A DNA stretch of 64,000 nt. Source: Isoetes taiwanensis (Eukaryota > Streptophyta > Lycopodiopsida > Isoetales > Isoetaceae). The position numbers and the translations under genes are program-made. Below, piece by piece: positions 9,518 through 64,000 of this stretch (the stretch's first letter is position 1; each line of letters opens with the position of its first letter). Below the pieces are notes generated by a model. It was given only the letters and a program-made list of their open reading frames with translations, did not search any database and had not been told where the DNA came from. The stretch spans positions 2,286,282-2,350,281 of the forward strand of contig JAJEKV010000112.1 of assembly GCA_021234155.1 (NCBI GenBank). The letters run 5' to 3'.

Positions 9518-9802
9518 ATGAGAAGTTGTCGCTATTACCCTTCTATACTGCTTGTGCACATTTTTTTTTTTTTTCCCGGGGTAGCCCGATATTGTTCCTA
9601 TGGCCGGCTACCCCTCTCTATTCTTCAAACATTGTATACTGCTGCTGTGATAAATGACAAGCCTGCCGGTTTTGTGTCTCTTGCGAGTCCCTTCCCAGAA
9701 TCTAGCAATTTCTATCAAAAGCACAATTTCATTATTTTTGTACAAAACCTGAATTTATGGACCATTTTTTGGAATCATACTTCAATAATAATTTTTCCCA
9801 CA

Positions 9803-12800
9803 CTAAGCAGCATCACCAGCGAGGGCTGCATATGCTTCAGCAACGGGCACTGGAATCTTGATAGTGTTGGGGAGCTTCTTCCTGTTCGATGGAGACCAAG
9901 CAAAGTCGATTGTCTCCAACTCAATGCGATCACTAGCAGTGGTTGGCCTCCATCTTTTCTTCCAACAGTTTACATAATTGGCCGGGTACACCTGGTTCCT
10001 TACGGGGACAGGCTCCCACCAAGTGATCTGTACTGTCTCAAAATTCTCCTTCTTATCATCCATTTGGGGCTCCTTCGTGGCATACCCTACCCATGTGGGA
10101 CACAACACGTCATCAGGATGTGCCATAATGAACATACCTTTTTTCATATCCTTGAATGGATTGAATTCTGGTATGGGTTTATCCTTCAATGGTCCCACGT
10201 ATGGAGGAGCGATGCTTGCAATTGGCTCTGGTACTGCAACCATTTCAGGAAGCTGAACTCCTTCTTGCCTGGTGCATGGCCAAAAGTCCTCATAACTGCC
10301 TTCCGGGCACGAAATCTTCCCTAGCTCCTGTAAAAGACCCATCCAATACTCAATGGTAGCCGTGAATTGTGCGGAATAGTTGGCTGTTTCCGGGGTGCCC
10401 TTCTTGCTTGTGGATATTGCAACCCAATGAAGGATGTGCTTTTGGATGCTGTTTCGCAACTGGCCAAGGTCCTTAACTGTTGCCTTTGGTTTAAGCAGCT
10501 TGGGTGTTCCTACAGGCATCATGGGCTTCCCGTCTTCCCCTTCCTTCCACATTTTTATACCGCATGTAGGCAGCCAATCCAGGAAGCACGGACGGGTTTT
10601 GTAATACATGACAGGCCACTCTCCATTCATTGCAAATTTGAATGTCAGGGGGGTGGTGTGGCCAGTCAATCTATCATCGCCGTCGGGTATGTACCCTTCT
10701 ATAAACCCCTTCCAATCTGGCACTTTATCAACAATGTATGGTACAGGTGCATTTAGATTGCATGTGTGGAACTCATATAATAATTCGGGCATGGTCAGCA
10801 CTTCGGCCTTCTTCAGAGTGGAGGAGAAGTTGCCAAACAAAGCATCAATGTCTTCATGTGTATGTCCATGTATCATGAAACCCAACTCTATCTCCTCGAA
10901 CACACCAAGATATACTAGGTATGAAAGATACGAGAAAACATACCTGTTTTATTTTGACCCGAAGCATTGTCCAGTTGCAGCAACAATGTTCGGGGGAGGG
11001 GCTTGAAAGAAGGTCCTTCTCGTCCAGGCAAGCTTGCAGGGATGTTGCTATTGGTGAGTGCCAATTTCGATTTGAGTGCCGCATTATTACGCAAGGAAGT
11101 CACCCAAGCTGGAGCTGATGTTTCTGGCATTGTAAGATGGCCTCCTGGATACTCATACCCCATCTCGAGCCTTCTCAATATGCTATTCAAAGAACCCACA
11201 TGAAAGTTCGAGTCGTCTGGCCATAGATCCAAAGCAAAGTTTCTATAGCTTCCTCTCCCATGACCATGAGTAAGAGCACCCGTCAATGATGTTTTGAGTT
11301 TATCCAGTCTCCAAAGTGACTTCACCGATTGCTGCAATTTTGGAATCATTGTCTTAGCCTGGTCCATCTTATCATGAATTATACAAACATAGTCTTTGGG
11401 ATGCCTATGGGACAATAATCTCCACGACCAATACTGGGTACGACAGGAGGCTTGCTCCAATCTGTGTGCTCTTCTCTGGTCATGCAATATCCGCCTTTCT
11501 GCCTCATCCTTTGTCTTCAACAGCTTCGTACGAATGACCTCGCATGTATCACATTTAGAGAACGGAAATTTTTTTTGCGATATTGACATCCATAAAGCTC
11601 ATTTTCCAAGTTCTATGAAACTTTGCTGGCGAGACTTTCTTGCATGTCAGTGCCATAACTTCTACATTCACCTCTTCTAGGATGCTTGTTTTTGTAAACA
11701 TTGCAGGCAACTTCATAATGTTTTCCCGGATGCCATCTTCATTCCTCCGACTACAGTGAGGCAAGGATTCGCAATTCTCCCTTACGAACAAGGAGAAAAC
11801 AGCCTCGGATGCTAAGGTGGATGCACGAGGCTTCAAACTACCACAGTTCCCGTGCTCTGCTTTGCGAGCACCCTCGATGTATTGTGCTTTCCATTTCAGA
11901 TAACCTGACTTTGAGATTCCGAGCCCAAGGTACCAGGCTCTCTTACAGACTAGCCTCCCATGCAACACCAAACGTTCCACTCGACGACCTTTCATGTTGT
12001 TCCCAAGCATGTCATACACAAATGTCACCCTGTCGCTAGACTTCATTGCATAGAACTCCTTGCGCATGTCGATGACCTGATTATGTGAGAACTTTGCACA
12101 ACACCTGTGTTTGCAACACAACGTCGTTCGATATTTCAAAACAGCCTCTCTAGAGCTAAGGCGTTCAATCTTCGGCTGTCTCGAGAACCGCCTATGTTGA
12201 CGGGAGTGGAAAGTGTACTTGCGCCTCTCGAAATTTGGATGCTTCTCAATAACAGAGCTGCCTTGACTTGACGGAATATCTGCTTGCTCGGTTGGCTTTG
12301 CAGTCAAGATCTCAGACACCTTTACACCATCCACTGTAACATATTCGTTACTCCACCTTACAAGCATACCTTCTTTTGGTACCTGTAAACAAGCCTGACA
12401 ACGGAAATTCACTTCAGCAGGAATCGGGTAACCCTCAACAATTGTCACTCCAATGCATTTCAATCCTAAGAACTGGTCGCATACTGCATCATCTGGGCCT
12501 GTAAAGGATATGAACCCCTTTCCCACAGGAATGGAGTCGCAAGAGTGCCATATTTCACAGTCCTTCTCCAGTAAAGTGTATCTGTTGTGGGGGATAGGTT
12601 CCATAGTAGATTCCACTCTGTTTTTTGGAGGTGGACCCGACATCCTCTACATTGGATTCACGGACGTCTTCCTCTCTCCAAAGAATGGAGGATCCTTTGG
12701 CTTCTCCTATAGTTTCTGCATCTGGAGTGGGCCATGGGAGGGCGTGACACTCCTCAAAAACCTCTTGAATGCCCACACTGACAGCTCCAGCGGGGATGGT

Positions 12801-12955
12801 TCGACTGAAATGGCACTGGTTAGAGTCTCCAGCGAATCCTTTGGCAATGGGATGACCATCCTTGAAGATGTACACTTCCTGCAGAAGAGAGTTGTCAGAA
12901 AATGGGGCCAGGTTATTGAGAGCAGAACATACTGCAACAGAATCAGCCTCCTGAA
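9803..12955 (-). pseudogene. DUF7869-type transposase-like gene of element B (disrupted)
   Basis: Reading leftward, pieces in successive frames encode one long protein alignable with the genes of elements A and C. It has a cysteine cluster (LCCKHRCC at about 12100), a CxxC near 11540, then HDKMDQAK..P, LQLDNASGQNK and GHTHEDIDALF. These three acidic motifs are typical of DUF7869 proteins and look like a DDE-type (RNase H fold) active site; that role is an inference. The C-terminal part has KGM....PTWVGYA....ITWWEPV and a basic/aromatic tail, stop near 9803. Frame changes occur at about 12640, 11570 (in an A8 run) and 10945. The first coding exon probably lies upstream of an acceptor at ~12955 and may have been displaced by element A. 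Confidence 0.8.
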
Positions 12956-12965: not shown

Positions 12966-13131
12966 AAATCGGACGGATGCCCAATTTGACCAATATTGGC
13001 CAGACATCCAATCAGGCCCGGGCCAGTTTATCAAATCCAAACGGGTCTGAAATTGGGCGGTCGCCCAAATTGGTTTTCAAACATCGCTGATGAGGCCACT
13101 GGAAAAAGTAAATTGGGCACCCGCCCAATTT
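12966..13131 (+). repeat. Element B palindromes, left group (three sites)
   Basis: Sites at 12966-12987 (degenerate), 13050-13071 and 13110-13131 have half-site AAATTGGGCG, a two-base spacer, and its reverse complement. They sit immediately upstream of the transposase-like gene. The last site ends exactly where element A is inserted. Confidence 0.9.
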
Positions 13132-13161
13132 AACAAGGTTTAAAATGAAACGCACTTATTT
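13132..13161 (+). repeat. Element A left terminal inverted repeat
   Basis: It begins AACAAGGTTTAAAATG and matches the reverse complement of 21702-21731 at 29 of 30 positions. Just inside, AAACGCACTT and AAGTGCGTTT form a subterminal hairpin. Confidence 0.9.
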
Positions 13162-14362
13162 AAGAAGTGCGTTTGAAAGATTCCTTTATAAAAATTGAAA
13201 ACTTGAAAAAAACACACAAAATAGGGAGCAAAATAGATTGTTGAGCAATTAGCATTCGGGATACCCCCAAAAAAGCGACATTTTTGAGGCCTTTTCATTT
13301 TTAAAAGAGGGCAAAGAAAAAAAATGCTTGTTTTGAGGAGAGAGACATTAATTTTGATAACTCGGTAAGTATTTATTGTTAAAAACAGAAGGAAATATAG
13401 ATTGTCTTTTTGCAAGCTTAATATAAGTACTAAGAAAGTCAAACATTGGAAAGACAAAGAGTGTGAAATCATGGAGCAAGAAAGAGTTGTTTCAAAGCAT
13501 TGTTAAAGAGACAAAGCTTTCAGTTTAAAAATCTTCATCAAGATAAATTATAATAATACTTAGCACATAGTTTACAATGGAAGTAGTGAAGAACTCTGTT
13601 TGTATAAATTTATACAAGAGGTGGCTCTTCCCAGTCCACAGGACTCTCGTACCCCTTAGGATCTGGCTCTTGCGAGCTTACAACAGCAGAGATGCCTCCT
13701 TCTGATTCCAAACCTACCAACACAGGTGGTTTCTCGGGCTCAGGCACCACAGGCTCCAAGTCGACAAACTCCACCTCCTCATCTTTTCTTCCTGTAAGTG
13801 GAGGCTGTATTTCTGTGTAAGTGCCCTTAACATCGCTGGCACCGTTCTTTGCTCCCAGTTCCTCGTTTTCATCAGGAAAGGATTCACAAGAGCTTATCCT
13901 GGTCCTGATGAAACTTACTTTATCTGGGTCTATGTCGACAGAGACGACATTGCGCCCCTGCTTAAGGGCGCAAACTGCTGTGGTGCCTGATCCAGAAAAG
14001 GCATCTAAGATCCAGTCTCCGTGTCGAAAACCATCAGATCAAATTATTAATAAGCGGCGTGGGTTTCGATAATGGGACACCACAGCGCCTTTGTCGCTGT
14101 GGGTCTCTTTAATTTCGCAGGCAATTTGAACCGAAATGCATTGCATGGAGGAGTCTTCTCATTCTCAAGGTTTGAAATGAATCATGGTCTTTTGGTGTCC
14201 GCTACCAAAAAACCTATATAAAAATGCTCAAAACAACTCACTAAGCGGACCACCACCATGACCCTTAACGCTTGTTTTAAGCCCGCCAAGCAATATAACA
14301 ATTAAAAAAATTAGTAGAAAGAAAACAAGGAAAATAAGTTACCCCAAAGAGTGTGGCGGTAT

Positions 14363-14515
14363 AAACTTATACCACGGTTGCCTTGTCAGATAAATTTATA
14401 CCACGGCGCAAAGAAGTCAGATAAATTTATACGACATTGCCTTGTCAGATAAATTTATACCACGGTTGTTCCAGCCTTTAAAATTTAAACCTTAAGACAG
14501 ATGTGGTATAAATTT
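14363..14515 (+). repeat. Palindrome array in methyltransferase intron (element A)
   Basis: Six TATAAATTTATA-type sites (two degenerate) have centres spaced 29, 31, 28, 30 and 29 bp apart. They fall in the intron between the motif IV and motif I exons. Confidence 0.92.
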
Positions 14516-15576
14516 ATACCGTAAAGTTACCGTAAAAAAAGCGTTAAATGTAAAGCTTACCAAACGCAGTTCTCGAAGCCGGCGTTACAGACCGCTCCCA
14601 TTGGTTTAAGCACCGACATCGTCTGTAGGTCGGAACGAAAAATGATGACCCTCTAGTTTTCAGATGTCGTGACTTCTTTTAGGCCATCCAAAAAAGACCG
14701 GACTTGCACGTGAGTGAAAGCCTCCTCGTCAAAAGCGCTATCCTTTATTTTGAATCCATAAGGAATGTCTGCAATGCATAATGTAAAATTTTTCTTGTCT
14801 AAAAGAGTCCCCAACCTTGTACAGTCACCCTGAACAACCCTGTACTGGACGTCCTGATCAAATGTAGTAAATCTCTCATAAATAGTGTCAAAACTGGAAG
14901 TGGCGACCTCTTTACCCTGTTCAATTGCCTTAAGCCTTTGCCTCTCCTCCTTGGCCCTACGAACCAGGTTTAAAAATCCAGTTGGTAGCCCCTTCTTCTT
15001 GTTCTGTAAGAATTATGTGAGACAAATTCACAAACACAGAACATATTTTTTGCAACACTTACCCAACCACTGAAGTTAACAACGTGCTCTCTGATGATAC
15101 TATCTGTGGTGCAACTTGGGTACAAAAGCTTGCACTCCTCCCAGTCCTCTAGGTTTAGCTGCTTCATTAACTCGGCCTGGCAGGTGACAATGTCTTTTTG
15201 ACTGCAAAGGGGAAAATATTGTAAGACAAAAAAGGAAGAAAAAAACACGGCATAGCAAGTGAGGCTTACGTCTTAGCTTCCTTGGCCATCTCGTCTAATG
15301 TGAATTCTTTGGCAACTACTTTTTCCAACAGGCGAACAAATATTTCTTTGCTTTTGAGACCCTGTAACTGCATCCAGGGTACAATGCTCATATTTTTTTG
15401 TTTTGATTCACCACCTTTTTTTTGGTTTCTTTCCTGCGTTGCTAGCTTGTTCTTTAAGCTCACCATCTTCAAACATACAAAAAATTCTCTCTTGAAGATC
15501 CCACACCTGTAAATGGTCAAACGAAGTTTAGTGTTGAATGGTGTAAGAGAATGGGCACGGCGACTCAGCACGGTAT

Positions 15577-15753
15577 AAATTTATACAGGGCGGCCAAGCA
15601 GTATAAATTTATACTCAAGATCGGCAGCCAAAGATAAATTTATACCGCACCGCCACGAGATAAATTTATACCAAGGATTGGAGACGGTATAAATTTATAT
15701 CATGACCGCCACGGTGATAAATTTATACCACGTCCGGCACCTGTGATAAATTT
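15577..15753 (+). repeat. Palindrome array in methyltransferase intron 3 (element A)
   Basis: Seven sites are spaced 28, 31, 26, 29, 28 and 29 bp. All lie in the intron between exons 3 and 4 (15829-15507); neighbouring exons contain none. Confidence 0.93.
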
Positions 15754-16811
15754 ATACCGTCACCAAGATATTACACACTTCTAACCACGCTAACAAACTA
15801 CAAAAGATTGAATTAAAGCTTTTACTTACTTGACCATCTCTGAAAGCGAGCTGAAAATAGTTATCGTATTGTTTGACAGCCATAATGGGTTTCTTATCCG
15901 AATCATAATCGAGGCAAAGACTGTCACACAAAGCTCAAGCTCTTGAAGCTTGTTCTTTTGTTTTTTGAAGTCCTCTCCATGCAGTTGTTTGAAATCCACG
16001 TACTCTCGGTGCATGAAGCGAATCTTGTCTATTAGGCTCATTTTTAGTCTGAAGTCATTGTCGAGATTGTGACTCACGGCAATGACTTTTGCCTCTTCGT
16101 CTGTTACGCCCACGTAAATATGCGCTTCCACGCTTTTCCACACTTCGTTACGGCTTTCTTCCTTTGATAGTTCTTTTCTTGCCTTGTAACTGTGTGTGCC
16201 TCCAAGGACATAATATGTGTAATCTTCGAAGTCTGCCTTTTTGTAATCCTTTAATTGGTTGCACTGACTTCTATCAACCATCACAACTAGTGGCGACACA
16301 TGCGCATGAGGATTCCTTCTCATTCTTTGCTTAAGGATAGCCACATGTGTCGCGTACAACTTCCGGACCTGAAGCACTCTGACCCCATCTTCATTTTTTG
16401 GTAGCCTCTTAATAGTGCTCAGTGTCAAAGAAATGGTCTGCTTGAGGAGTTTGATTTCATTTACGTGCTTTAGGATGGCACTTGACTTGTCTGAGGGCCG
16501 CACAACAATATCAGCTCCAGGAGCCTTTTGTAGAGCTTCTGCTGACTCATCTACAGTCAAGGCTTTTGTGGTTCTTTTCTTTTTGGTAGGAGGCTGTGTA
16601 TCTACTACCAGGGAATGCTTCCTACCCTTTCCCTTTTGCACCACTGGTTCCTCCTCTTCTTCCTCTTCTGGTTCTGAAGCCTCGTCCCTTTCGACATCTT
16701 CTTGAGGACGTGGGTACCAGAGACCCTTTACCAATTCTTTTTCTTCACAAAGTATTACTGAGCCGAGAATGTCCACTATGTCCTGTAATACAGGGTAAAT
16801 TAGAAAGATGA

Positions 16812-16827
16812 CGGTATAAATTTATAC
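16812..16827 (+). repeat. Single palindrome in intron 2 (element A)
   Basis: One GGTATAAATTTATACG site lies in the short intron (16851-16783). Confidence 0.9.
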
Positions 16828-17459
16828 GCAAAGCCACTAAGACAGACGTACATAGCCATTCTTGTAATTCTCCGCAATGTAATCATGGATGTCCTTAGGT
16901 CTGCACATGCTTATGCGCAGCATTCTACTGTTCAGAACATAAAAAACTTCACCTTTGTCATGATTGCACTTCATCAAAATCTCATCTTCATTTCCTGTTG
17001 CAGTCAGTGTTATCATTTCCCCAGCGGGGTAATAATCATCTTTGGTAAATTTTCCCCTCCCTGACTGGTGACACAAATACAGGTATGCCTCTGTGGGTTT
17101 GCGCTCTCTCGCCCCCTCGCACGCATTAACGCCCCAGTCCGACAATTCATATGTTTGTGGCTCTGGTGGTGCCGCCTTTGATGACTGGCCTCTCTGTGTG
17201 AACTTGATCTTTGGGCTGATAAGGGGCAAAAAAAACCATTTTTACACCAAAAATGCAGTTTTTCGCCTATGTTTTGGACACTTTAACTGTACGAAAACTA
17301 GCTTAAAGGACCTAAAATGCACGCTATTTTAACCTTTTATTTGTGTCATTTGACCTTTAAAACTCAACATTAATGCTCAACTACAAAGGTTCGTAAAAAA
17401 TTTTTTAGACACTTTCGACACTTTACGAGAATAGAAGCCACAACGTTGTCTTAGTAGAT

Positions 17460-17737
17460 AAATTTATACCGAAAAGTGTTCGAACGGTATAAATTTAAAC
17501 GCCGAAAGAAAGAAGCGGTATAAATTTATACCGTTGCGAGAACACTTTCGCGGTATAAATTTATACGCCGAAAGACGAATCCGTATATACCGTTAGTGAA
17601 TCCAGATAAATTTATACCGCTCGTGCTCGAGGCGTATAAATTTATACCGCGAGTGTTCTGCAACGGTATAAATTTATACCGCTCTTGCTCGAGGCGTATA
17701 AATTTATACCGTTCCAGAACACTTTCGGTATAAATTT
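17460..17737 (+). repeat. Main palindrome array in intron 1 (element A)
   Basis: Ten sites (one degenerate, near 17587) are spaced 31, 31, 35, ~30, 21, 30, 32, 30 and 32 bp. The best match is GGTATAAATTTATACC. The linkers differ in sequence, so the phasing is not that of a simple tandem repeat. Confidence 0.93.
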
Positions 17738-17813
17738 ATACGGAAGACCCTTAGACTCAACAGATTAAAAAAGACGAAACTAGAATAGTACTAATAGAGA
17801 CTTACGTGGTCAT

Positions 17814-18540
17814 GGTCGTATGGATTCGCTTTTATAGCTGTTCTGAGAAGCAATTTGGAGGGGGTATATAAGCGGCAGCTCGAGCGGCCTTCACTCCTAG
17901 CGGTATGTAGAAAATAGAGTGACCGGGTGCCGGGCTTAAGTACCTCTAAGTGCCGCTTTAGAGATAGCCCCATAAAGTTTTCAATACAAGTGTCCGTGGA
18001 GTTTTCGTGATAAATTTATACCGCTTTTCGCTCTATGTTGCCTCCTCCGTATAAATTTATACCATCTCTCAGATAAATTTATACAGTCTTCCGCTTCAAG
18101 TTTGCCTTCTCTCAGATAAATTTATACCATCCCTGTGGTAAACTTTTACCGTCACCCTTCAATCGTGATAAATTTATACAAGCAGACGCTAAGCTTCGAA
18201 AGTATGGCTCGAGAAAAAGAACCGCAGCCTCCAACTCCTGTTCTCGCAGCTTCCTCCTCGCAATGACATTCACACCTCCTCAACGACACACCGTGAAGTA
18301 GCCTCAAAAATTCTCGGGCCCGATATTCAAACCCCCAAATGTTGAGTTTACTCCAAAGACGACCACGCCGGGCTTCCACCACCAGTTTTTTTTACTCCAC
18401 CACACCCCGCCCCCGAACGCCGCTTTGCCCCCACCAATGCGTTTTTACTCCACCACGCTAGAGAGGTCGACTACCTACTCCACTTCATTTCAGTACGTCG
18501 CCCATAGTCCACCGTAGGCTAAATCCCCGGAGGCAAATCA
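17814..18540. promoter_or_regulatory. Divergent promoter region of element A
   Basis: This gap separates the start of the leftward methyltransferase gene (ATG at 17813) from the rightward transposase-like gene. On the minus strand CTTATATACC (about 17866-17875) is suitably placed as a TATA box for the start at 17813; CTATAAAAG (about 17829-17838) lies too close. It includes the palindrome group at 18012-18175. Confidence 0.55.
18012..18175 (+). repeat. Palindrome group in the divergent promoter (element A)
   Basis: Six sites, one of them degenerate (GGTAAACTTTTACC), are spaced 41, 22, 43, 22 and 30 bp, less regular than the intronic arrays. They end before the transposase-like gene, and none is found to its right. 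Confidence 0.9.
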
Positions 18541-21321
18541 CGCCAACTCCATCCATTTCACTAAATGATACTACAAGTGGGAGCAGTCAGCGACACGCAA
18601 CTCTTGTGTTCTACGACACTTCAGGAGCTGGTCAACTACGTCACCAACCTCGACTACTTTTTCCCAGAGATAGGGAAAGCACCTCCCCCCAGGACTTGCC
18701 CACACCAAACCTCTCAGCATCTACAAGTACACCTCATGTTGATCTCTTAGACGAAGAAACACCTCATGTTGATCTCTCAGACGAGGACCTACCAAAGCCA
18801 CAAGACTCCATGTTCGAATTCAAAGCCCCTGCAAGTAAGAATCTTAAGCGTAACTTACACAAGAAAGCATGTACAACCGTTAGAAGAAAGAAACTTATCG
18901 ACGAGGCTCACTTGAGGGCAATACATACAAAGCACTGTTGTTCTCAACGTTGTATGCTTAAGATTGGACTAAAGGAATTGAGGTTGATTCGTGATAGTTA
19001 CAGTTCAATGACTCTGCTAGACCAAAGGGGCTACTTAGCCTTCAATATTAGGCCAGATTATGGTGAGAAGTTTACTTACACAGCTGGTGGCCACACCGTC
19101 TGTCAAACGGCCTTCAAATTGATTCATGCTTTAGGCAGCAGACGACTTGACCGCCTGAAGAAAAGGCTTGACAAGAATCCAGGCATCAATGACTACTGCC
19201 ATTCAGGAGGCATATCCAGAATTCATGCCCTTCAATGTGTTTCCTGGATGGAAGGTTTCTTTAAGGAGTCTTGTGAGAAACTCCCTAACAGCCCTATGTA
19301 CCACTTGAGTGACAATTTCACGAAACAAGAAGTCTACGATAATTATAAGGAGATGTGTGTTGAGGCTGGAGAACGCCATGTCTGCTACTCTTACTTTCAT
19401 CAGACTGAAAAAAGAGTTTTCTCAAGTCCATTCCTAGAAAGCATAGGATGTCTGTTTGTGCTACATGCTCTGAATTAAAAGCTCAGAGACAAAATGCAAG
19501 GACACTTCACACTAAAAGTAAGCTTCCAGGACGTGTTCTTGCCTAGTTCTACTTAAAAGTAGGTTCTTTCCTAAACATGTTTTCATTTCAGATGCATTGA
19601 AAGAGAAACTGAACAAGCACAGAGAACAACAATCCTTAGAAAGGAGAAAATTGACAAAACATAGGAAGAAAGCACTGGAGCAACCACTCAACTACATACC
19701 GGTTGTTATTGATGGAATGTACCAGAAGAAGACCACCCTACCACATTTTGTCAATGTGCCTAAGGATGCTGCTGAAGAAGATTTCATACACCTGCATGTT
19801 GTTGGTGCTATGGTATTTAATGGAAAACTATCTTGCAAGGCATTTTTGAACTATCCAAACATTCATGCTGATCCAAATCTGACTATCACAATATTGAATA
19901 AGCTTCTTTCCAATCTAGAACATATACCACCGGTTCTGTATCTTCAGCTAGACAACACGACAAGAGAAAATAAGAATCAGGCGTTGTTTGCTTACTGTGC
20001 TATGCTAGTTGAGAAACAAATCTTCAAGAAGGTGAAGATTGGTTTCCTGCTTATTGGTCATACACACGATCAAATTGATCAGATGTTCAGTAGGTTCTCT
20101 AAACGTCTTGCTCAAAAAAAAGCGCTCAGCCTACCAGCAATGATTGAGGTTATCCAAGATTCCTACAATCCTCGTCCAGACATCGAGTTATTAGAAGAAA
20201 CTTATGATTTCAAGGAATGGATTTTTCGGAGAGATCAACTGGGTCACTGTGCTATTGAGCCCTTGAGAAACATTACATTTCAGCATCAGATCAAAATTTC
20301 ACTTGTAGATGACAAGGCGATCTTACAAGGAAAGAAATATGCCACATCCTTGCAAAGGCAATAGCCAGCAGTTGTATTCAATTCATTCGGACCATCCCCA
20401 ATACTAGTTCCATGCTCTCTGCAGAGCAAATGCCTCTAAAAAGCTTGAAAGAAATCACAAAGAGTAAAAAGGAGGGAAGAGCATTTGACTTAAACAAATC
20501 ATTGGATTTGATTCAGACAAGTATTCAGTCGTGCTCTAACCACTTTGGGGAGGCAGATGCTTTATGGTGGCCTCAGTTTTTTTCTCGGCAACGTGACATG
20601 TTGCAAGCTTCATTACAAGGTCGAAGACCAGTTACATTCAATTGGCCATCTAGGCAAACTCTCCCTGTGCAAGTTGAGAATCAAGAGGAACATGTAGAGA
20701 TATTGGCTAGCTCAGATGAAGATGACAGAGTCATGTACACTGGCCCCAGATGCACAGCACAACAAGTTGCTCGAGTATCTGGTTCAGTCTCAGAGATTCA
20801 GAAAGGAATGCTCATAGCTGTCCCAGCTAATAATGATGAATCTGGGAAGCCATTCTGGCTAGCTAAAGTACTGGAGGTAACAAGAGAGGATGGAATTCCC
20901 ACTCAATTAAAAGTGCACTGGATGAGAACAAATGCTGCCAGTGCTTTTAGTGGGAGTTATACTTTGGAGATGGTAAAAACAGGAGTGGGAAAGAGAGCAA
21001 AGTCCAAAGCAAGCACTGCTGTCATAGATCTAGCTGAAGTAAAGGTTCTTGCATATGACTTTGTTCTCGACTGGCCGCTAATAAGTGACGATGGTCACTC
21101 AAACTTTAATAAGGCTCCAAGCATGTGGATTAGACAAACAACCTAGAAAGGTGGCCAAAAAAGATGATGATGAGGACTCACTTGTAGACAGTGAGGAAGA
21201 AGATCGTACATCCAGTTTTGAGAGTGAAGCTGAGCATGAAGGCTCAAGTGATCAGGGATTAAATGAGTCGGAGGATGAGATGCATCCTGATCTTGCTGCA
21301 AAATGTAAGTTTGTCCGATGA
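18540..21321 (+). pseudogene. DUF7869-type transposase-like gene of element A
   Basis: The first long exon encodes a disordered acidic N-terminus, then HCCSQRCMLK and a helical region. Joined across an intron at ~19517-19591 (GTAAGC..TTTCAG), it continues with VVIDGMYQKKTTLPHF, LYLQLDNTTRENKNQ and IGHTHDQIDQMFSRFSKRL, the classic DUF7869 signature and a plausible DDE-type active site. The last third contains IQKGMLIAV and PFWLAKVLEV..LKVHWM, which may be an SH3-like (tudor or BAH-like) chromatin module; that is a guess. It ends in an acidic tail. Frame changes occur at ~19407 (an A6 run), ~20340 and ~21130. The start is uncertain because the frame is open upstream of 18606 without an ATG. Confidence 0.82.
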
Positions 21322-21701
21322 CTCGAACATGTAAAGAACATAAAGTGCAGGTGATGATTGTCTGTCAAAATGTCCTATATTTTTGACAATTTTGTTCATA
21401 ATTTTGTACAATTTTCACAACCTTGAATATATCACTTCTTTGTCACTCTACTACCCTTGCTATTTTTTTTATTGCCCCTTTTTTGCCACACTTTATATAA
21501 GTAACTATTTTTTGTTCTAAATTAGGAGGATAAAAAATGCTGTTTAAAATTTTTGCATGGAAGTTATGTTCAATCAACCCCTCAAAAAAGGTACCTAAAT
21601 TAACTAAATTGTCACACCTGTCACAAAAAAATCTTAAAAATGGATTTTTAAGGGAATTTTAGGGAATCTTTCAAAGATTCCTTTTGAAGTGCGTTTCCAG
21701 C
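21322..21701 (+). other. 3' region of element A
   Basis: AT-rich sequence lies between the end of the transposase-like gene and the right terminal repeat, with no ORF and no palindromes. Near its end GAATCTTTCAAAGATTCC is a perfect subterminal palindrome, partly shared with the left end. Confidence 0.6.
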
Positions 21702-21731
21702 AAATAAGTGCGTTTCATTTTAAACTTTGTT
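21702..21731 (-). repeat. Element A right terminal inverted repeat
   Basis: Read on the minus strand it begins AACAAAGTTTAAAATG and differs from the left end at one position. It is followed by ATTT, matching the four bases before the left end. Confidence 0.9.
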
Positions 21732-21778
21732 ATTTACTTGACGCAAATGTACACTGGCCAAAGCACACTGGCCACAGT

Positions 21779-21800
21779 AAATTGGGCGCTCGCCCAATTT
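21779..21800 (+). repeat. Element B palindrome, right of the A insertion
   Basis: A site with half-site AAATTGGGCG lies 48 bp beyond the right end of A. It shows that B sequence resumes here. A degenerate half-site (AAACTGGGCGCC) follows near 21889. Confidence 0.9.
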
Positions 21801-22289
21801 GTCCCATTTCCTGCAGGTGGAAACACATGACCGGCTTCAGTCATTGGTCGCCCGAAATGGATGCTCTGCACGTGGCAGTGGCCAAAGTAAACTGGGCGCC
21901 TGTCTACAAAGTATTGCATTCCATTTCCTGCGGAAGGAATACATGATCACCTTCTTTGGGCTGTCGCCCACATTTAGGCCAGTTGTTTCTGGAGGGCTAC
22001 ACAAAATTGGCTGGTTTTGAAGATTGTCAGAACTTGACTCCCAAAGAGTGGACCTCCATTTGTATCAGCACTTGCATGGAATTGGCAGGCCATGCAGAAG
22101 CAGATTGTTTAAGGCTGCAGCATTAAGGAGGAGGGAGCTCATTCAAGTCACCAAGACAGAGTATACATAGCAGACTCTTCAATCTAACAGCTAGTAAGGA
22201 TAGAAGGACAAAAATTGAATTCCAGGTGCTCACGTCAGTAAAAGACATCTTCCAAAAAATGTTTCATTAGTTGAGCTGACATGATTTTG

Positions 22290-23362: not shown

Positions 23363-23449
23363 CTATTCTATCTTCCTCTTCATTCTGGGTCTGTCCTGCA
23401 GTTACTGCAATAATGAACTGTTTTTCCTTCTAATCCCTCTCTATTCTTT

Positions 23450-51649: not shown

Positions 51650-51661
51650 TGTATATATAAA
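51650..51661 (+). promoter_or_regulatory. TATA box of the terpene synthase gene
   Basis: GTATATATAAATA is about 50 bp upstream of the ATG at 51708, a normal plant core-promoter spacing with a short leader. Confidence 0.75.
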
Positions 51662-51707
51662 TAAGGAATCCGATGGTTCTGTGGCACAAACAAAACTACA
51701 TCTCTTC

Positions 51708-52899: not shown

Positions 52900-53938
52900 C
52901 CCAGGTTTTTTAATTATTCAATGCAATTCTATCTACTAAAATCCTTGAATGATCTAAAACTAGGATTATGGCAAACAAGGACTAAACGAAATCCTCAAGG
53001 AGTATGACATGACCTCTTATAAGACTAAATTCGAACAATTCGTATCATGAAGGGACTTGCCATTTGATGTTTAAGTAACTAAAAGTATTATGTCTTAAGG
53101 TTAGAAAGCTTGCTTGAGGACAGAACTTGATGTATGCATTGACAGAAGACACTAATCAGGATGTGACACTAATCAGAAGACAGCTCTAGATTATTAAGAT
53201 AAATTAAAAGTAAGGTAGAAATCATGATTTTAGGTCTTTCCTGGATACTGACAGCGACACTATTATAATTTTTTTTTGAAGGATAGTGACACTACTTATT
53301 ATAATGCTTGCTATCAGACACCAATTCAGTTCTTTTTGTGCCTGAACACGTTTTACCTCCAATGCTCTGGACATTCAGAATCTGGAACAATGAAGAGTTT
53401 TATGCAGTTACTTAGATCCTTCCATTCGTCTTTTGAAGGATTCAGTTCAATAGTCCTTTTTTCCTGAAACTAATAGCTGATATTTGGTCAATCTATGGCA
53501 TGTATCGGTGCTGCTTGCCTGCTTGCAAAGGTCTGTAGCAACGTATGCTAACCTATATTAAAGATATTACATGAGAATAAAACTTACATGCTGGTTTCTG
53601 GTGCCGACACCAATATTGGATTCAGAGTACACCATACCTGCCATGGATAGAAGGCTTAATTCCCTCGTTTCTTTCTTGTCTTTCTCTCGTGTTTTCTTGA
53701 CCCTTAATAGATGGTTAAGTACATAATAAGAGCGTAACAGCTGTAACCGGCCTGCTGATGAATTCTGCCGATAGAAGAACTGGATCCAGAATGAATCTGT
53801 GCACCCGATTCCTTTCATAGCCACTCCAAACGCCTATCATCGGTAGGAGAACATTTGATTCTTGTTGGGCAGCTATGTTTTGTTTTTTTTTCGCAACAGC
53901 GCCAACCCTTGGTGTCTATGTTATTTTTAAGCCTAACC
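52900..53938. other. No recognised gene
   Basis: AT-rich sequence with short frames only. Confidence 0.5.
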
Positions 53939-54258
53939 TGGCACTAACCCATGGCAACCAATGGCCCTATAAGTTCTGCCATGCAGACAGTGTTTGACGA
54001 TAGGGATGAGCCTGTCCCTTGGTTATTGGAAGAAATATGCTATTTATTACCATAGGAAACATCACTTGCATAAGCTGTTTAAGTAAAGACAATATAATAA
54101 TGTGCTGATTATATACCCAAGTAATGCTTCAAGCTGCTGAGTATATCTGTTGGGAAAAGTTAAGGCTTGTGACCTTATTTGGCAGACTAATCCATGTGAT
54201 CTAACGAGTTATGATGAGCAGGTAACAAAATATGCGCATGCAGGAAATATTTGGCAAT
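53939..54258 (+). repeat. Dispersed direct repeat, copy 2
   Basis: Partner of 48-367. Similarity ends at TTGGCAAT on both sides, where different sequences begin. Confidence 0.85.
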
Positions 54259-55690: not shown

Positions 55691-55764
55691 TTCGGTGGTA
55701 GAGGGCATTCATCTCCCATAGCTTGCCTCCTCGTCCGGAGCACATCCGAACCATCAAGTGCCAC

Positions 55765-55956
55765 ATGAGCTATAATGATCTGTGTGAATGCGTGAGAAAT
55801 GGTATCAATCTTGATCCATGGCTGCAGTCCAAAGCAGATGGTCCTGCGAGTGGTTGCAGGAAGCTCACTCGTGTTGTGATCCACCTTTATTGGCTTCCTG
55901 ATCAGGAGATCTATGAGCTGAATGCCATCACCTCAGCAGGTGTTGATGATGAGTGA
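55765..55956 (+). CDS. Small element-linked protein, copy 4
   Basis: The frame MSYNDLCECVRNGINLDPWL, a variable segment, then VVIHLYWLPDQEIYELNAIT is the closest relative of the 28.3-kb copy. The frame is open upstream to ~55702 but without ATG. An ancestral start at ATGGCTTCC, seen at 28.5 kb, reads CATAGCTTG here, so this copy may be N-terminally shortened to 63 residues. It sits downstream of the C transposase, whereas in B the copies sit downstream of the ParB-like gene. Confidence 0.6.
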   Translation: MSYNDLCECVRNGINLDPWLQSKADGPASGCRKLTRVVIHLYWLPDQEIYELNAITSAGVDDE

Positions 55957-56570: not shown

Positions 56571-59500
56571 TCATGAGTTCTCATCATCGTCGTTAGCTTC
56601 TTTAGCCACTAATTCTTGCAACTGAGCCCCCACACTATTGGGGATCACCACTAACAACGGCCTCGTCTCTACCGCCCAACCGTAGTCTATTGTTTTCAAA
56701 TGTTGGTAGCATGGCGGGTCATTAGGATTGGGTCTCCACTTCTTGCTCCATCAATCCCTATATTGCATTGCATATGAGGTTCCCTTTTTGGCAACAGGCT
56801 CAAACCAAGAGACAAACACCTCTTCGTAATGAAGGAGATTAGGGTCCTCTATTGGGTCCTCTTCGGCAAAAGCCATCCACGTCGGGAAGTTATCATGTGG
56901 ACTGATTAGCAAGAGCATTCCTTTCTTGACATCTTGGTAGGGGTCGAATATTTCAACTGGTTTCTTTGGTCTACCTGAGAAAGGCCCTACGTAGTGAGAT
57001 GCTACAATGTGCTCATCCACCAACACGTTTTCGGGTTCTTCCAATGCATTTTGCCTGGTGTTGGGCCAGAAATCCTGAATGACTGCTCTACTGGGCTGAA
57101 CGTCCCCAAGCACTCGCAACAAGGTGGACCAGTTACCAGTAGTCAATTACTTCATTCATATATGTGTTGGACCATGAGTGATCGCCAGCTCTAGAAATAG
57201 CTGCCCAATGCATCATGTACTTGGCAATAGAAGATCTCAATGCACCTATATCTTTCAAGCTCGCATATGGCTACACGACCTTAGGTGAACCTGTCGGAAT
57301 GGTAGGTAAACCCTGGGCATCCTCCTTCCACATCCTGATTCCCTTTTCAGGGAGCCACTCCCTATGCCCTGGCCTCATCTTGTAGAACATTAGTGGCCAT
57401 CCATCCTTCATGCAGAACTTGAAGAGTAGAGGTTCCAAATGACCACATAAACGGTCCTTCTTATCAGGGATAAAACCTTTCACGAATTCCTTCCAATTAG
57501 GAACCTCAGTCACAAGGTAAGGTGAAGGAGACTTGGAACTACACTGCCTGAAGAGTTGCATAAGCTCTGGAATAGTCAATGCATCTGATCTTCTCCTTGG
57601 AGTAGAGTAGTTTCCAAAGAGGGCATCTATGTCATCATGGGTGTGTCCAACCATCATGAATCCCAGCTGCGCTTGATCGAAGACACCTAACCAAACCAAG
57701 TATGACAAGTAAGAGAAAAGATATATGTTCTTGTTTTGACCTGAGCAATTGTCTAACTGCAAGTAAAGCCTCCTAGGCAACTTCTTCGGTACCATAGGGC
57801 CCTTGAGGGGAGGCAGAAAATCATTTCTAGTGCCATTTACCATTTTTGTCCTCAGGGCATCTGTGTTTAAAATTGCTCCACCCCAGCACCTTTCAAGATG
57901 ATCTGTATGTCTCAAATGGCCCCAATTGTCCTCAGATTGATTCTCCAGTGTTTTCAAGGTATGATTCAAGGATCCCACATGAAAATTAGAATCATCAGGT
58001 CAGAGGTCCAGTGAGAAGTTGCCCAAGGCACCTATACCATGCCCGTGCATGAGAGCACCTGTAACACTCACCTTCAATCGTTCACCCCTCCATACAGACT
58101 TTGCTAGCTTTTCTAGACGAGGAACCATGGTCTTATTCTGATCCATCTTATCATGTATAATGGTTAAAGCATGTTCAGGAGATCGATGAGACAAAGCTCT
58201 CCATGACCAGTAGAGACTCCTGCATGAAAGTTGGGCTGTCATGTGAGATTTCCTTTCTACGGCAAGCTCCCTTCTTTCATTTGGATCTCTAGTCTTGGCA
58301 AGCTTCTCCTTTATCACAATACGGTATTACACTTAGAGAATGTTATCCTTTTAGCGATTGCTACCTCTGGGTGATTCTCCTTCCATGCTGACAAGAAGGA
58401 CGAGGGAGAAACATGTTTTCCTGTCATCTCGTGCACGGTAATATTTATCTCTTGATGTATGTCCTTTTTAGTCAAGATGGAAGTTAATCTCTTCACATTC
58501 TCTCTAGTGCCTCCACTCGTAACCTTTGAGCGGTGTGGCATAGTCTCAGCATTTTCATCTATATACATAGATAGCACAGCAGTTCTAGCCAATGTATGAG
58601 ATCTTGTCTTTTTAGATCCGGCATTTCCATGCTTCGCAATCCTGTGGCCACTCAAAAATAGCTTCCTCCATTTGTAAAATGTAGAAACGGGTATACCATA
58701 AGCACTATGCCATGCCTTCACGCAGACTTGCTTGTTGTTCAGCATTAGCTTTGTGACAGTTCCATTCTCTGAGCAAAGATCTAGCATATTGTACGCAAAA
58801 GTTGTGCGTTCTGAGCTTTTCATGTTCCAGTAAAAGGTCCTCATGCAGGCTATCTCTTTAAATGTGAAATTAGCACAACATCTCTTCATGCAGCAGAGCG
58901 AGGACCTGAACTCCAAGATAGCGTCAGTTGTGATTTTCCTTTCACATTTGTTTGGGGCGGAGCGTGGTCTGGCCCGCCTATTAACCATATGGTATTGTCT
59001 TTTTTTTTTTTGTATTCCAACCTCCGGCCTGATGGCATAAGGTTCTTTCTCGACATCTGTCTTCTTCACGGCCGATACTAGACTTGAAACAGGAATATTG
59101 TCTACTAGAACCAATGCTATTGGCCATCTCACCAAATCATGCACCTGCGTTATTTCTGCACAAGCCTGACAGCCTATAGAAATATTTTCAGGCATGGGGA
59201 ACAGGTTCATAATAGAAACCCCTATCCATTCCTCACCCAGCTTCATGTCAGACACAACATGGTTTGGATCTGCGAAGACGATGACACCTGAAGCATAAGG
59301 CATATTGCAGCACTCATGCAGTAACGCGCATGTCTTCTCCACTAGTTGATCTCTAGAAATCCCATGCACTTCACTTGGTTTACTGTTTTCTACACTATCA
59401 TCTTCTCTGACCTGCCAATTTATCCGTTTAATCTGCCCAGGTGGCGTGCAAACATCGGCTGCTTCATTATTAATGTCGTTTTTACACCAAAGAACAAAGC

Positions 59501-59691
59501 TACCGATAGCTTCCCCTAGCTTCTCCAATTCCGGTTCTGGAAACGGAAGTGGTATCTGTCCATCAAACACAACCACAACAGAAACTAATCAAATCCTCCG
59601 GCACAGGAACATTGTGGTGGTGCATGAAGTTGTGCACTCTGCCTTCTGCCACTTTCTTCCCCAACAGGTAGAATGACTGTAAAGCTTCCAT
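56571..59691 (-). pseudogene. DUF7869-type transposase-like gene of element C (disrupted)
   Basis: The start is probably ATG 59691 (MEALQSFYLLGKKVAEGR). The order matches B: PLPFPEPELEKLGEAIGSF, LCCMKRCCANF, FSKCNT, HDKMDQNKTMVPRL, LYLQLDNCSGQNKN, GHTHDDIDALFGNYS, then KKGMLL..PTWMAFAEE..VSWFEPV and a C-terminus ending DDDENS (stop 56571). Motifs of the presumed active site are kept, so loss of function came from later lesions: frame changes near 59590 and 58325, TGA at 58000 where B has TGG, and TAG at ~57271. Identity to B is clearly higher than to A, grouping B and C. Confidence 0.82.
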
Positions 59692-59723: not shown

Positions 59724-59991
59724 ATCGCGATCGCGATCCTCTGGACACATTGGCAGAAAAATATATGAATACGTCATCAGCTCTAACTAAAGTCTTCACC
59801 AGCTCTAACTAAAATCTTCATCAGCTCTCACTAAAGTATTTATGGCCCACTCAAATATTATTTTACTCTAGGATTTCAGGACAGAATACCTCCACAAGAT
59901 CGCAGTCGCGATTATTTCGAGCGAGCAGATTTGGAACGTGTACCTGACGTTGCGTCAAACGAAAATAACTCAGCAGGATCACAGTCACGAT
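59724..59991 (+). repeat. Element C palindromes in the divergent promoter
   Basis: ATCGCGATCGCGAT (59724-59737), ATCGCAGTCGCGAT (59899-59912) and ATCACAGTCACGAT (59978-59991) lie between the two gene starts. Later copies show C-to-T or G-to-A changes at CpG, as expected of methylated sites. Confidence 0.75.
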
Positions 59992-60390
59992 TTCTTCAGG
60001 CGAGCCTACCAAGATCATCACACCTTCAAATGAAAGGAAATGGTGCATTGAAATTGCACAAGCAATTCCTCAAACTAAAGGTGACAGAAGAAAAGACCTG
60101 TGCTTGTTCCTCCGGACTGGCAAGAAAGTTGAGGACGTACAACAGATAGGGATAGTGATTGCTATGTGGGAGGGCACAAAAAACAATGTGCAGGACGCCA
60201 TTATATGCAGCGTGGAGGATACACAGCAATTGCAGTTCCTGGAGTACGTTTTGCAATGGAGGAACTACGACCCCTCAATGACGACGGCTAGCAAGTTGAA
60301 CAAACCGGCAACAGGGAAAAATGTCCCAACTAGTGCAAAAGGATATGGCTGGGAGCTGCAGTCGTATGAATCTTTGTTTCTATCCGGAAT

Positions 60391-61070
60391 AAAGGAAGGA
60401 AGGAAGGAAGGAAAAATTTTTAACGTCCACGGAACCCAATCGGGTTATGGGACCAAGTACATAAGGGACCGAAGTCCTGGACCGAAGTCCAAACAAGAAC
60501 ATGGGCCGAAGCCCTTAAACCAAAGCACAACGTGAGCTAGAACACAACCGTCATGACCCGGATTAAAAACCACCTGGGAAAAAACCGTTGCCAGGATGAC
60601 TATGGCTGCTCACCGATCCAAAAATCCATGCTGTTGCACAAGCAACAAGCATACCTTCATACCTCCAGCAGGCAAAGCTTCACCAAGCAACTCCAAACCG
60701 TAACCTCTTCACAACTGGGTGCTGGAAAACAGACGCCCCCAACGCCAATCGCCCAGACACGCAGGGAAGGCGGCGCTCAGAAAAACCGCTCAGGGAAATC
60801 GCCCATCGGAGGTGCCTCCTCACCCATCCACCAGCCCTGCGCCAAGGCGCCAGCACCCCCAGGTATGCGCGCAGGCGGACATCCACTCAGGCACACACAG
60901 GGGTGCCATCCTTCACTGCCGCTGCTCCAACGCCATCCATCATTGCATCCGCTCGGGCAGGCCTCAGGCAGCGCCTCAGGCAGGCGCCAGGCGCCAGGCG
61001 GAGAGGCAACGGAGGAGGACTCAAAGGGAAACAGGGATATGCTGCCAGGTTTCTCGGCATGCAGGAAAGG
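60391..61070 (-). mobile_element. LINE fragment inserted in the element C gene
   Basis: On the minus strand the 3' end reads GTACTTGGTCCCATAACCCG..CCGTGGACG and ends in a (CTTC)n tract (60393-60415), matching the 3' end of the LINE at 23285-23354 apart from the tail repeat. GC-rich sequence to ~61070 is the body. It splits a conserved exon after LFLSGIK. Confidence 0.7.
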
Positions 61071-62181
61071 TTTGCTAGCAGACAAGAAACCACCGAGCAT
61101 TGCGTTGAAAGCAAAGCGTGATGAGAAAATGCCCTCGATCATGGACACAAACTGGCTAAGAGCTCAGGCCAAGAAGAAGAATGTAAGGCCTGCCTCCATA
61201 GCAGAGGACTCTTCCCAGATCAGAGCCCTGTTTGTAGAGCCTGTTACCATGGCCCCTCCTTCAGCTATTATTAATCTGACACAGCCTCTGGCTATTTGTG
61301 CTCCACCTGTTACAACGAAAGAGACGTTGGTCCCCAACAAGCTATCAAAGTTCACGATCAACCTGCGCAAACTGACAACATCGGATAGTGGAGAGACTTC
61401 GTCATCTCGCACGCCTCCTTCTGTCACAGGTTTATCTTCTTCGAATACCTTGGCATGGCCCGTTATCCCTGAACTGCCAACTGAGCTTAAGTTCAATCCT
61501 GAGGAAGAACGTAAGTTGGTCGAGCAAACCGCACAGAAGCTTGAACAGTTTAAGCGGTTTTATCCGCTTGGTGTGAACTGGTTTATGAAGGTATCTATTT
61601 TTGATTGCGAGCCAGCTCCTGCTAATCTCACCCATCGAATGCGGTCGAACGACCATGTGCAAACACTAGTGAAGAGCTTCAAGACGTATCCTACAGAGGT
61701 CCTCACACCGGCCGACGTTGTCCCCTTTGACCCAATTACTAGGTGATTGTTATTATCCATCATATTTGTTTTGTGGCTTCTTATCTAATCGGTCTGCATT
61801 ATTTCAGGAGAAAGGTCACCTGGAGCGCAGAAGCTTATTTAAAGTGCAAAAAATTTTGGATAATTTCTGGTAACCATAGTATATGTGCAGCTCAATTGCT
61901 TTGCGGTGTTGTTGGTGAACTGGAACAACGGCTCGAATTTGCTAAAGCCTACGCCAGGAGAAGGACCAGAGTGCTGAATGGAAATTTGTCAGATAGAGAA
62001 TATATTGAGTTGAGCATTCAGTGCAATGAAGTCATTGCAAACACCATATACAGAGAGCCTTTGATAGAGAAGCTGCAACAACTACGGCATCAACACAAGG
62101 CATATGGATGTCCTCCGCAAGGGCCCATTGGTACTGCTACAACATCGGCATGGAAGGTATTTTGTATTTTTAGCTCACCAA

Positions 62182-62195
62182 CATCGCGGCCGCGA
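62182..62195 (+). repeat. Element C palindrome within an intron
   Basis: ATCGCGGCCGCGAT lies inside the 64-bp intron 62157-62220, repeating the intronic placement seen in A and B. Confidence 0.85.
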
Positions 62196-64000
62196 TTATG
62201 CTGACCATTTATTTTTCAGGACTTCCACGAGATAGCTACTACAACATTGAAGGTGAAGGAGCTAAAAGATGAAAATCAGTTCATTTTTATGGAGGAGCGC
62301 GTCTTCAAAAAACTAATGGAAGTGGCCAACAAATGGGTGAGCAGAAAACTCTGTGATGAACATGGGGATCTACCTGACAGGCCAACGAAGGACTTCTTCA
62401 ACAAAACTTGGCTAAGATTCCTTAGAGGTATGTCTAATGCAGAGGTTTCTCAGCTGCTTGATGAGATTTTGGAAGGAAAGACATACCTTAAGGTGCAAGC
62501 GGGATATCACAGCAGGTATGATTGCAAGCAGCGCGCCATTGACATTAGAAGCTTGACCTTCATGCGCAGAGAGATTGTGTCCTATGCTTCCAGCTTGCTT
62601 CAGAAAGAATACTCTTCTTTTGAAGAATTGTTGTCTGAGTTTCCTGAGTTCACTGAACAGCGGATTCTTGATATTTCTGATTCGGATACAGAATACGTGA
62701 AGTCCAATTACAACAAAGATCATGTCGTGGGTAATTTGCCCGTTGCATTTTTAGAGACGATCAGATTCGATTTTGAAACCTGAAGAGGCTATCAAAATCA
62801 AACAGAAAAAAAATGTTGTTCACGCAGTGACAAAGGAAGGGATTCCTACGTCCACTCCAGTATCTGAGAATGCAACACTGGTGTTCATTGACATGAGGGG
62901 GTTCTCTACAATATGGAACTGCAAAAAGTACATGGAGCTCTTTACAAGAGTATCCAGCATGACAATTGCTAATCTTTATCACCTGGTTATTCTGATGCGG
63001 TCTGTGAACTTGCCAGATTGCTTGTACAGTCAAAAGCAGATTCAAGGCGGCTCCCATATTTCTGTAAGCACGTATGACGAGCAAGGATGGGAGAACAAGA
63101 AAAGAGTAAAGGAGTATCAGTATTACATCACCCATATGTGCATTAACAGAAGCGACTCCAGGGTAATGCCGATATTGCCTGAGCTGGAGCTTCATTTGAC
63201 ACCGGTGAGCTCAGCACCAAAGAACACCCCCTTGCCACCAATGCATGTCACTGGAAATGAAGAAGCTGATGAGAAAATGAGAAAAAAATGGCAGACTTAC
63301 TTCACGGGTAAACCAAGATACAAGTTTGTCGGAATGGAAGGTGATCATGTGCTAAAGTGCCAGTTGAAGACATCATATGCTTACTACATTGTTGATCAGC
63401 TGGTGCCCAAGGATGGTTGTGTCCTTGATTTCTTCTCAGCTGGTACTGCTTCCCGTGTCGCCTTAATGCAAGGAAAGAAAAGTATTGCATTCGAGAGCCA
63501 AGGTAAAGTATGTCGATTTCTTAGGGCTTTCTTGCATAAGCTTGAAAGAATGGTTTGCCAGGGCACTGGGGAGTCATATGAAGAGGAGAAAGCAGACACT
63601 GCAAATGATCCTGACAAGATCAATATAAATATTACCCAAAAAACAGATATATCTAACCTTGATGAAATCTTGGATCAAATGGATGCACAGAGCTACGAGC
63701 AAAGGATGCAGCAGACGAAAAGACTTTTAGAGTCTACAGAGAAAGGTATTAATGCGCTAGAGCCTATGTTTTAAAAATTGGGGGCTTTAAACAAAAAATT
63801 TGATGCGTACATGCCTTTCTTGACAGACGGATCAAATTTCGAATACATAGGAATCAACGAGGAACTTGCGCATCATGAGGGTGAGCCAAGTGGTACACAA
63901 GAGCACCAGGTTGTAACCAAGAAAAAGAAGCTCTTCCACACACCAGAAATCGACTGTGGTGTCCAAAATCCCGCATCGGTGGAAGGCAGCGCAATGGATA

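Follow-up and report, generated by a model that had tools for sequence, protein, structure and literature searches.

We have analysed a stretch of 64,000 nucleotides from the genome of Isoetes taiwanensis (contig JAJEKV010000112.1, positions 2,286,282 to 2,350,281; the window in the following), which harbors three class II DNA transposons, here called A, B and C. Each carries two genes that diverge from a common centre, one with the domain DUF7869 and the other, the partner gene, encoding a ParB-like/methyltransferase-like protein. A first interpretation made from the letters alone (the sequence-only reading) had proposed three copies of such a divergent pair, and this was confirmed, since Pfam PF25273 (DUF7869) matched all three above its 26-bit cut-off, with E-values of 2.5e-53 in A, 2.3e-24 in B and 1.5e-35 in C. 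The nesting of A in B, the terminal inverted repeats (TIRs), the target site duplications (TSDs) and the palindromes described below were missing from that reading. Introns and gene bounds in the window were inferred from open reading frames (ORFs) and are hence presumed, and exon bounds are approximate.

Structure of the three elements

Element A (13132-21731, 8600 bp) lies inside B. It is bordered by 30-bp TIRs, of which the left one (13132-13161, plus strand; AACAAGGTTTAAAATGAAACGCACTTATTT) pairs with the right one (21702-21731, minus strand) at 29 of 30 positions, and by a 4-bp TSD, ATTT, at 13128-13131 and, at the other edge of the element, at 21732-21735. The insertion point is the centre of B, which is thereby split in two. 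A query from which A had been deleted aligned across the joint in eight other B copies at 82-94%, and in further copies at 71-78%. The empty site itself was read in the loci L067 and L068, each with a single ATTT. In this one case, A was inserted exactly where a B palindrome (13110-13131) ends; the last four nucleotides of this palindrome are the left copy of the TSD.

For B, a terminal repeat search found neither ends nor TIRs; on its right side, homology to the copy L066 stops at 28040. A 43-nt direct repeat (8701-8743 and 9660-9702, 91% identical) adjoins the DUF7869 side of B, to the left of where the sequence-only reading began, and could be part of an insertion by which B was truncated. 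Element C runs from a tentative left end at 55438 to the end of the window at 64000 and on to a right end at about 64716, some 716 bp past the window. These ends are based on an imperfect inverted repeat (22 of 26 positions identical) and, for the right end, on homology to L064 stopping there. The repeat giving the left end scores 32, the next chance matches 27 and 26, and the C TIR is tentative; the TSD is ambiguous.

The DUF7869 gene

The DUF7869 genes, delimited by their ORFs, are located at 18462-21321 on the plus strand in A, at 9803-12646 on the minus strand in B and at 56751-59588 on the minus strand in C. The frame in A closes soon after the domain, where the frames of its relatives remain open further, and the C gene has an in-frame stop at 58000-58002; the window copies of A and C therefore look damaged. 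As to the motifs that the sequence-only reading had named, LQLDN and GHTHxxID are present in the translations of all three copies, whereas A has DGMYQK as the first motif where B and C have DKMDQxK, and the exact HCC is found in A only. DxM, LQLDN and GHTHxxID form a series of spaced conserved acidic motifs. Cys pairs are present in these genes as well, and upstream of the domain C has a match to HTH_23 that stays below threshold (0.023).

This half of the element is common to A, B, C and the L copies introduced below and ties all of them together. A search for DUF7869 in 14 control genomes gave no match (0/14), a query of IMG/VR with the A exon returned no DUF7869 relative, and literature searches for DUF7869 found no papers.

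The partner gene

In A, the partner gene consists of several exons at 13606-17241 on the minus strand. It matches Pfam N6_N4_Mtase (7.7e-9) and has the methyltransferase (MTase) motif IV as DIPYGF and motif I as DAFSGSGTT. The B gene (24042-27764, plus strand), which was delineated using ORFs, homologues and profile comparison, is ParB-like by its GNH motif and its position and MTase-like by a C-terminal LDFFSGG; it matched no Pfam family above the cut-off, and no DPPY-like motif was found when its translated exons were inspected by eye. In C (59969-63774, plus strand), the N6_N4_Mtase match is below the cut-off (0.0038), the place of motif IV is taken by DMR, and LDFFSAGTA is kept.

A relative from a further family in the same genome, L, gives an N6_N4_Mtase match of 8.7e-19. 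The L MTase matches PHROG_67 (3.6e-27) and the CcrM structure 6pbd (5.5e-12), and the L-family test protein, which we assembled from the exons of L028, reaches 2.6e-14 against the NCBIfam CcrM model, with 52.9 bits as compared to a cut-off of 830. A query of IMG/VR with the alignment of the L MTase yielded four MTase relatives, all of them partial. Among GenBank phages there were 28 records, none of them covering 80% of the query, and the 25 matches listed hit only residues 324-579, which is the MTase part.

Motif IV reads D[LI]PYGF in 16 of the 17 listed rows from A and L, the exception being L019 with DLSYGF, and motif I (DAFSGSGTT) is present in 11/11 L rows as well as in window A. The motifs of an adenine MTase are intact in these two lineages, and their proteins may well be specific for adenine. 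The C lineage differs in that the place of motif IV is D[MIF]R in 8/8 rows, the catalytic motif being gone, while [LI]DFFS[AG]GTAS is retained in seven of eight rows (L054 is disturbed there). It looks as if catalysis were dispensable in C, and probably in B, with the protein nevertheless maintained in C.

For the ParB-like region the support is weak: a GxH motif is present, the Pfam match to DUF6551 (0.0038) is below the cut-off, and the B protein had no ParB match among the NCBIfam models. Of the joint ParB and beta-class MTase protein that had been proposed from sequence alone, the MTase-like part therefore held up in A and L, whereas the ParB part is weakly backed and C is without the catalytic motif.

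Genome-wide linkage, mobility and selection

The genome searched comprises 1.66 Gb in 1110 contigs, and linkage was determined in scored samples, namely the best 150 of 9908 DUF7869 candidates, the best 150 of 1444 N6_N4_Mtase candidates and the best 150 of 2283 candidates for the A-type MTase exon. Among these, we found 24 pairs of DUF7869 and N6_N4_Mtase closer than 20 kb, as compared to 0.48 expected from random placement; 22 of them are divergent, one is tandem and one convergent. The A-type MTase exon gave 22 pairs with DUF7869, 21 divergent and one convergent, with window A itself included. Close pairs are hence divergent in 43 of 46 cases over both samples, which, together with the TIRs and TSDs, bears out the proposal of a two-gene mobile element.

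In 17 of the pairs with N6_N4_Mtase the two genes are less than 6 kb apart, and 12 of these pairs were retrieved as the L-family loci L017-L028. Both ends of the element are visible in nine of the 12 loci, and one end in L024, L026 and L027. A script found a perfect 4-bp TSD in eight of the nine two-ended elements; in the ninth, L022, it chose an inner repeat, and the aligned end gives AGGT on both sides. The duplications differ between elements (ATGT, TTAA, ATAT, GGTC, AATG, AGGT, ATAT, CTTA and AAAC). The terminal repeats, as read by eye, are AAACG[GA]GAG in L and AAACGCACTT in A, and the transposons described here are about 7.4-9.3 kb long. The 4-bp TSD of the A and L elements is also that of the Sola superfamily, though this length is common to other superfamilies. 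TIRs, TSDs and the empty site establish that the elements have moved in the past.

All finite ratios of nonsynonymous to synonymous substitution rates (dN/dS) fall between 0.04 and 0.25. They are 0.04-0.17 for DUF7869, 0.04-0.15 for the MTase exon with motif IV, 0.07 for the ParB exon (a single finite pair) and 0.08-0.25 for the pseudo-MTase exon of C (three finite pairs), L054 having been excluded for its disturbed frame. For most pairs dS is saturated, with dN at most 0.54. The low ratios fit long maintenance in moving copies.

The most likely role of the DUF7869 protein in these elements is that of the transposase. One could also imagine that it has another role and that the elements are mobilised in trans by another transposase, a view to which the lack of fold evidence for an RNase H in DUF7869 lends some room. 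However, DUF7869 is the second gene to be conserved in the pair, its dN/dS is low as just given, and it carries the spaced acidic motifs, such that we regard mobilisation in trans as improbable.

Palindromes private to each lineage

The introns and the central region of each lineage contain a palindrome of their own: GGTATAAATTTATACC in A, TGTATTCCGGAATACA in L, AATTGGGCGnnCGCCCAATT in B and ATCGCGnnCGCGAT in C. The perfect palindrome ATAAATTTAT occurs 26 times in the 8.6 kb of A, and GTATTCCGGAATAC up to seven times per 10 kb in L. Exact counts in the genome are 7218 for the A 16-mer, 3392 for the L 16-mer, 2848 for the B 20-mer and 118 for the extended C 20-mer, as against zero for each of the four patterns when reversed.

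Specificity was evaluated in a cross table of 35 loci (12 L, 8 A, 9 C and 6 B), allowing at most two mismatches for A and L and at most one for B and C. The motif of the own lineage was found in 34 of the 35 loci (exactly in 30 of them), and that of another lineage in none. Since the L loci served to derive the L motif, the test set consists of the remaining 23 loci (L029-L051), of which 22 are positive. All nine C loci retain their palindrome at no more than one mismatch. The sampling reaches down to MTase identities of 65% in A, where 19 sites are present, of 53% in C, with a single imperfect site, and of 50% in B. A gapped palindrome with 6-nt arms recurs, up to 23 times, in 14 of the 23 loci L029-L051; in 20 first-order Markov sequences per locus, the count never exceeded one. 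No recurring palindrome was seen in L001-L010, for which the pieces comprised 3.5 kb around the DUF7869 exon only. L030, an A-lineage MTase copy with 88% exon identity, has no A palindrome in the 4.4 kb upstream of it.

In the window, the A palindromes form arrays in presumed introns (14361-14517 and 15575-15755), on the 5' side of the MTase gene (17458-17739) and in the common central region (18010-18177), and one site lies across the MTase stop codon. B palindromes are found to the left of the A insertion (13050-13131) and in a stretch to its right (21779-23910), with a LINE-like (long interspersed nuclear element) piece in between. Those of C are ATCGCGATCGCGAT at 59724-59737 in the common central region and ATCGCGGCCGCGAT at 62183-62196 in a presumed intron. 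One near-match resembling the A palindrome lies in B and another in the 30-56 kb stretch. In eight of the 12 L loci, 79 of 89 sites are located outside the coding matches, as compared to an expectation of about 30 outside and 59.1 inside. The coding intervals are tblastn matches with ORFs and include some read-through into introns; L024, L026, L027 and L028, the source of the query exons, were excluded.

Of the 82 L spacings of up to 90 bp, 62 measure 41-43 bp, approximately four helical turns, and 70 of 107 spacings in A measure 28-32 bp. Among neighbouring L sites at a distance of 42 bp (38 pairs), the palindromes are 95% alike and the spacers 53%, the former value being partly built in, because sites were picked at no more than two mismatches. 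In 168 L units, complementarity continues past the core, with 0.57, 0.52 and 0.48 at offsets 12-14 as compared to 0.36, 0.31 and 0.36 after shuffling, an excess that is slight or absent in A, B and C. In the arrays of L011-L028, this flank complementarity looks as if palindromicity itself were kept.

Such long perfect inverted repeats in presumed introns, and the extended pairing in L, would also be compatible with RNA hairpins or DNA cruciforms acting in splicing, transcription or small RNA formation rather than with protein sites. However, the core sequence itself is alike, and not the pairing alone, even if this is partly a matter of site selection, and sites are present in the central intergenic region, too. 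The spacing in L would suit dimers bound to the same face of the helix, but a fixed spacing also results from tandem duplication. Overall, we consider a role as nucleic acid structures unlikely.

A possible self-recognition function of the partner protein

We propose, with a probability of roughly one half, that the partner protein is a sequence-specific self-recognition and anti-silencing factor for the palindromes of its own element, comparable to VANC of the Arabidopsis transposon VANDAL21, the partner of which is a MULE (Mutator-like element) transposase. In such a scheme, the DUF7869 transposase would act on the TIRs, and the ParB-like/MTase protein would bind its own palindromes in the introns and in the central, presumed promoter, region, thus keeping the element transcribable and mobile. 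Where the MTase motifs are intact, as in A and L, the protein may additionally methylate adenines of the element. In C, where motif IV is gone, it would work through binding alone, and this loss suggests that binding rather than methylation is the conserved output.

A different emphasis would make the MTase a selfish epigenetic writer and the adenine methylation of the element the functional output. Conservation speaks for this, with motif IV kept in 16 of the 17 rows from A and L and motif I in all L rows, as does the fact that CcrM, an adenine MTase, is the closest relative with a solved structure. On the other hand, the C lineage is without motif IV in all eight rows and yet has the low dN/dS given above and a palindrome in every locus. 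Furthermore, beta-class MTases usually recognize 4-6 bp, which compares poorly with palindromes of 14-22 bp, and on balance we find the writer explanation doubtful.

Alternatively, the palindromes could be recognised by DUF7869 or by a host factor. They might be transposase sites, used for assembling a transposition complex or for autorepression, with the ParB-MTase protein doing something else. Since both proteins vary between lineages, the match of motif and lineage cannot discriminate between them, and the Cys pairs and the sub-threshold HTH_23 match would suit a DNA-binding DUF7869 protein. Against this, the element ends bear different repeats of their own, which would be more natural sites for a transposase, and the palindromes are located in introns and the centre, outside the TIRs. 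We therefore judge the assignment to the transposase to be rather unlikely.

Several further observations weigh against the self-recognition proposal. Concerning the fold, the L protein reaches only 21 bits (2.1e-4) with the NCBIfam ICE ParB model, far below the curated cut-off of 143.75. Sulfiredoxin has the ParB fold; of ten matches of the ParB-like region to PDB profiles, six are to sulfiredoxin, at values of 0.71-1.6, and the best is to DHFR-TS (0.083). AlphaFold2 models from four rows each were too poor to read a fold, both for the ParB exon (predicted local distance difference test score, pLDDT, 37.7) and for the DUF7869 exon (38.2), and the DUF7869 profile gave nothing credible against PDB (best E 0.75), such that the RNase H-like and ParB folds put forward by the sequence-only reading are unproven. 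Furthermore, the middle residue of motif IV is L or I instead of P.

As for the palindromes, L030 is the sole locus of the 35 without its own motif, L034, L044 and L047 have one or two imperfect sites only, and nine of the 23 test loci have no exactly recurring palindrome arm. Finally, the four lineages represent four independent cases at most. Even the relationship among the partner genes is distant. At 1e-4, phmmer linked no ParB or MTase exon of A/L to one of B/C, in line with the far divergence noted from the sequence. Profile comparison gave weak matches, one of the L MTase part to C around motif I (6.5e-5, probability 64%) and one between the A/L and B/C ParB parts around GNH (0.0021, 13%). 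Because these matches are colinear, and because position and order are kept, it is nonetheless likely that the partner genes of A/L and B/C descend from a common ancestor.

A variant of the self-recognition proposal draws on parS and ParB. The protein would load at the private palindromes and spread by means of its ParB-like domain, thereby protecting or marking the whole element, and methylation would be the original output, since lost in at least one lineage with loading kept. As each lineage has its own site, the lineages would remain separate. We put this forward tentatively, as a possibility well short of even odds.

Other features of the window

A short repeated ORF (e.g., LDPWL..VVIHLxWxPDxExYELNAIT) occurs at 28257-28526 and 28840-29136 on the minus strand and at 29112-29537 and 55702-55956 on the plus strand, adjoining the right side of B and falling within the presumed left end of C. 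Three of the four were scanned, without a Pfam match. B palindromes are also found among these ORFs, at 28642, 28723 and 29759. Two ORF fragments with the common peptide ARALGVKSTVPYQILLQET (22291-22773 and 37611-37946), one of which sits between the A insertion and the partner gene of B, are presumably LINE-like. Outside the transposons, there is a terpene synthase-like ORF at 51591-52826 (Pfam PF19086, 5.8e-26). The window further contains a direct duplication of about 1 kb at 34393-36375 (92-93% identity) and a direct repeat of 300 nt at 45-344 and 53936-54235, 94% identical and 54 kb apart.

Relation to known systems and significance

It had been claimed from the sequence that no eukaryotic transposon with this pairing was described. 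This does not hold as it stands, because a ParB-like gene with an N4C/N6A MTase opposite a transposase has been published for Sola1-1_Ec32 of Ectocarpus (PMC12477816), and the claim can apply to the DUF7869 half only. In that paper, proteins of this type are suggested to bind the transposon that encodes them and to modify it; for cases in green and red algae, the authors refer to Iyer 2011 and to the Bostrychia genome of 2025 (PMC12477816). Algal transposons with a ParB-MTase gene are hence already known, and in the literature searched, this paper is the one identified case of such a gene in a eukaryotic transposon. As far as described there, Sola1-1_Ec32 resembles the Isoetes elements in the opposed arrangement of the two genes, but it is 21.5 kb long and a single family, whereas the Isoetes elements are smaller, fall into four lineages and have DUF7869 as the partner. 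They also differ in their lineage-private palindromes, in having a lineage without the catalytic motif and in their plant-like host; the term 'Palindrom' does not occur in the main text of PMC12477816.

A second parallel is with VANC of VANDAL21, which has its targets as repeats in introns and upstream regions, with changes from one related element to another (PMC5735166). The Isoetes elements likewise have repeated short, element-specific motifs in introns and upstream noncoding sequence, which here are putative targets. VANC, however, has DUF1985/DUF287 (PMC5735166), and the VANC21 motifs are 9 nt long and non-palindromic, in contrast to the 14-22-bp palindromes of Isoetes. No Pfam match to DUF1985 or DUF287 was found among the Isoetes element proteins scanned.

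CcrM and the phage beta-class adenine MTases share with the partner protein the order of motif IV followed by motif I, and they provide its best sequence matches. Unlike them, the partner protein has a ParB-like domain and an unassigned N-terminal part, is encoded in several exons, carries D[LI]PY as motif IV and resides in a eukaryotic transposon. A ParB-like domain has been predicted at the N-terminus of an adenine MTase in the met genes of the Wolbachia prophage WO (PMC3089641). These are prophage genes, for which the portion of that paper at hand mentions neither a transposase partner nor palindrome arrays, whereas the Isoetes protein is part of a transposon.

Within the literature searched, the partnership with DUF7869, the land-plant-like host, the private palindromes and the pseudo-MTase lineage are therefore new. 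The ParB-MTase accessory proteins of algal transposons gain a candidate DNA target, and, to judge from C, at least one lineage seems able to do without catalysis. To our knowledge, the escape of transposons from silencing in plants is understood in molecular detail for few systems only. Here, a single genome offers several candidate pairs of protein and motif, three of which have exact sites in the thousands. This makes the specificity and coevolution of these pairs directly testable, and likewise the part played by a captured bacterial-type adenine methyltransferase.

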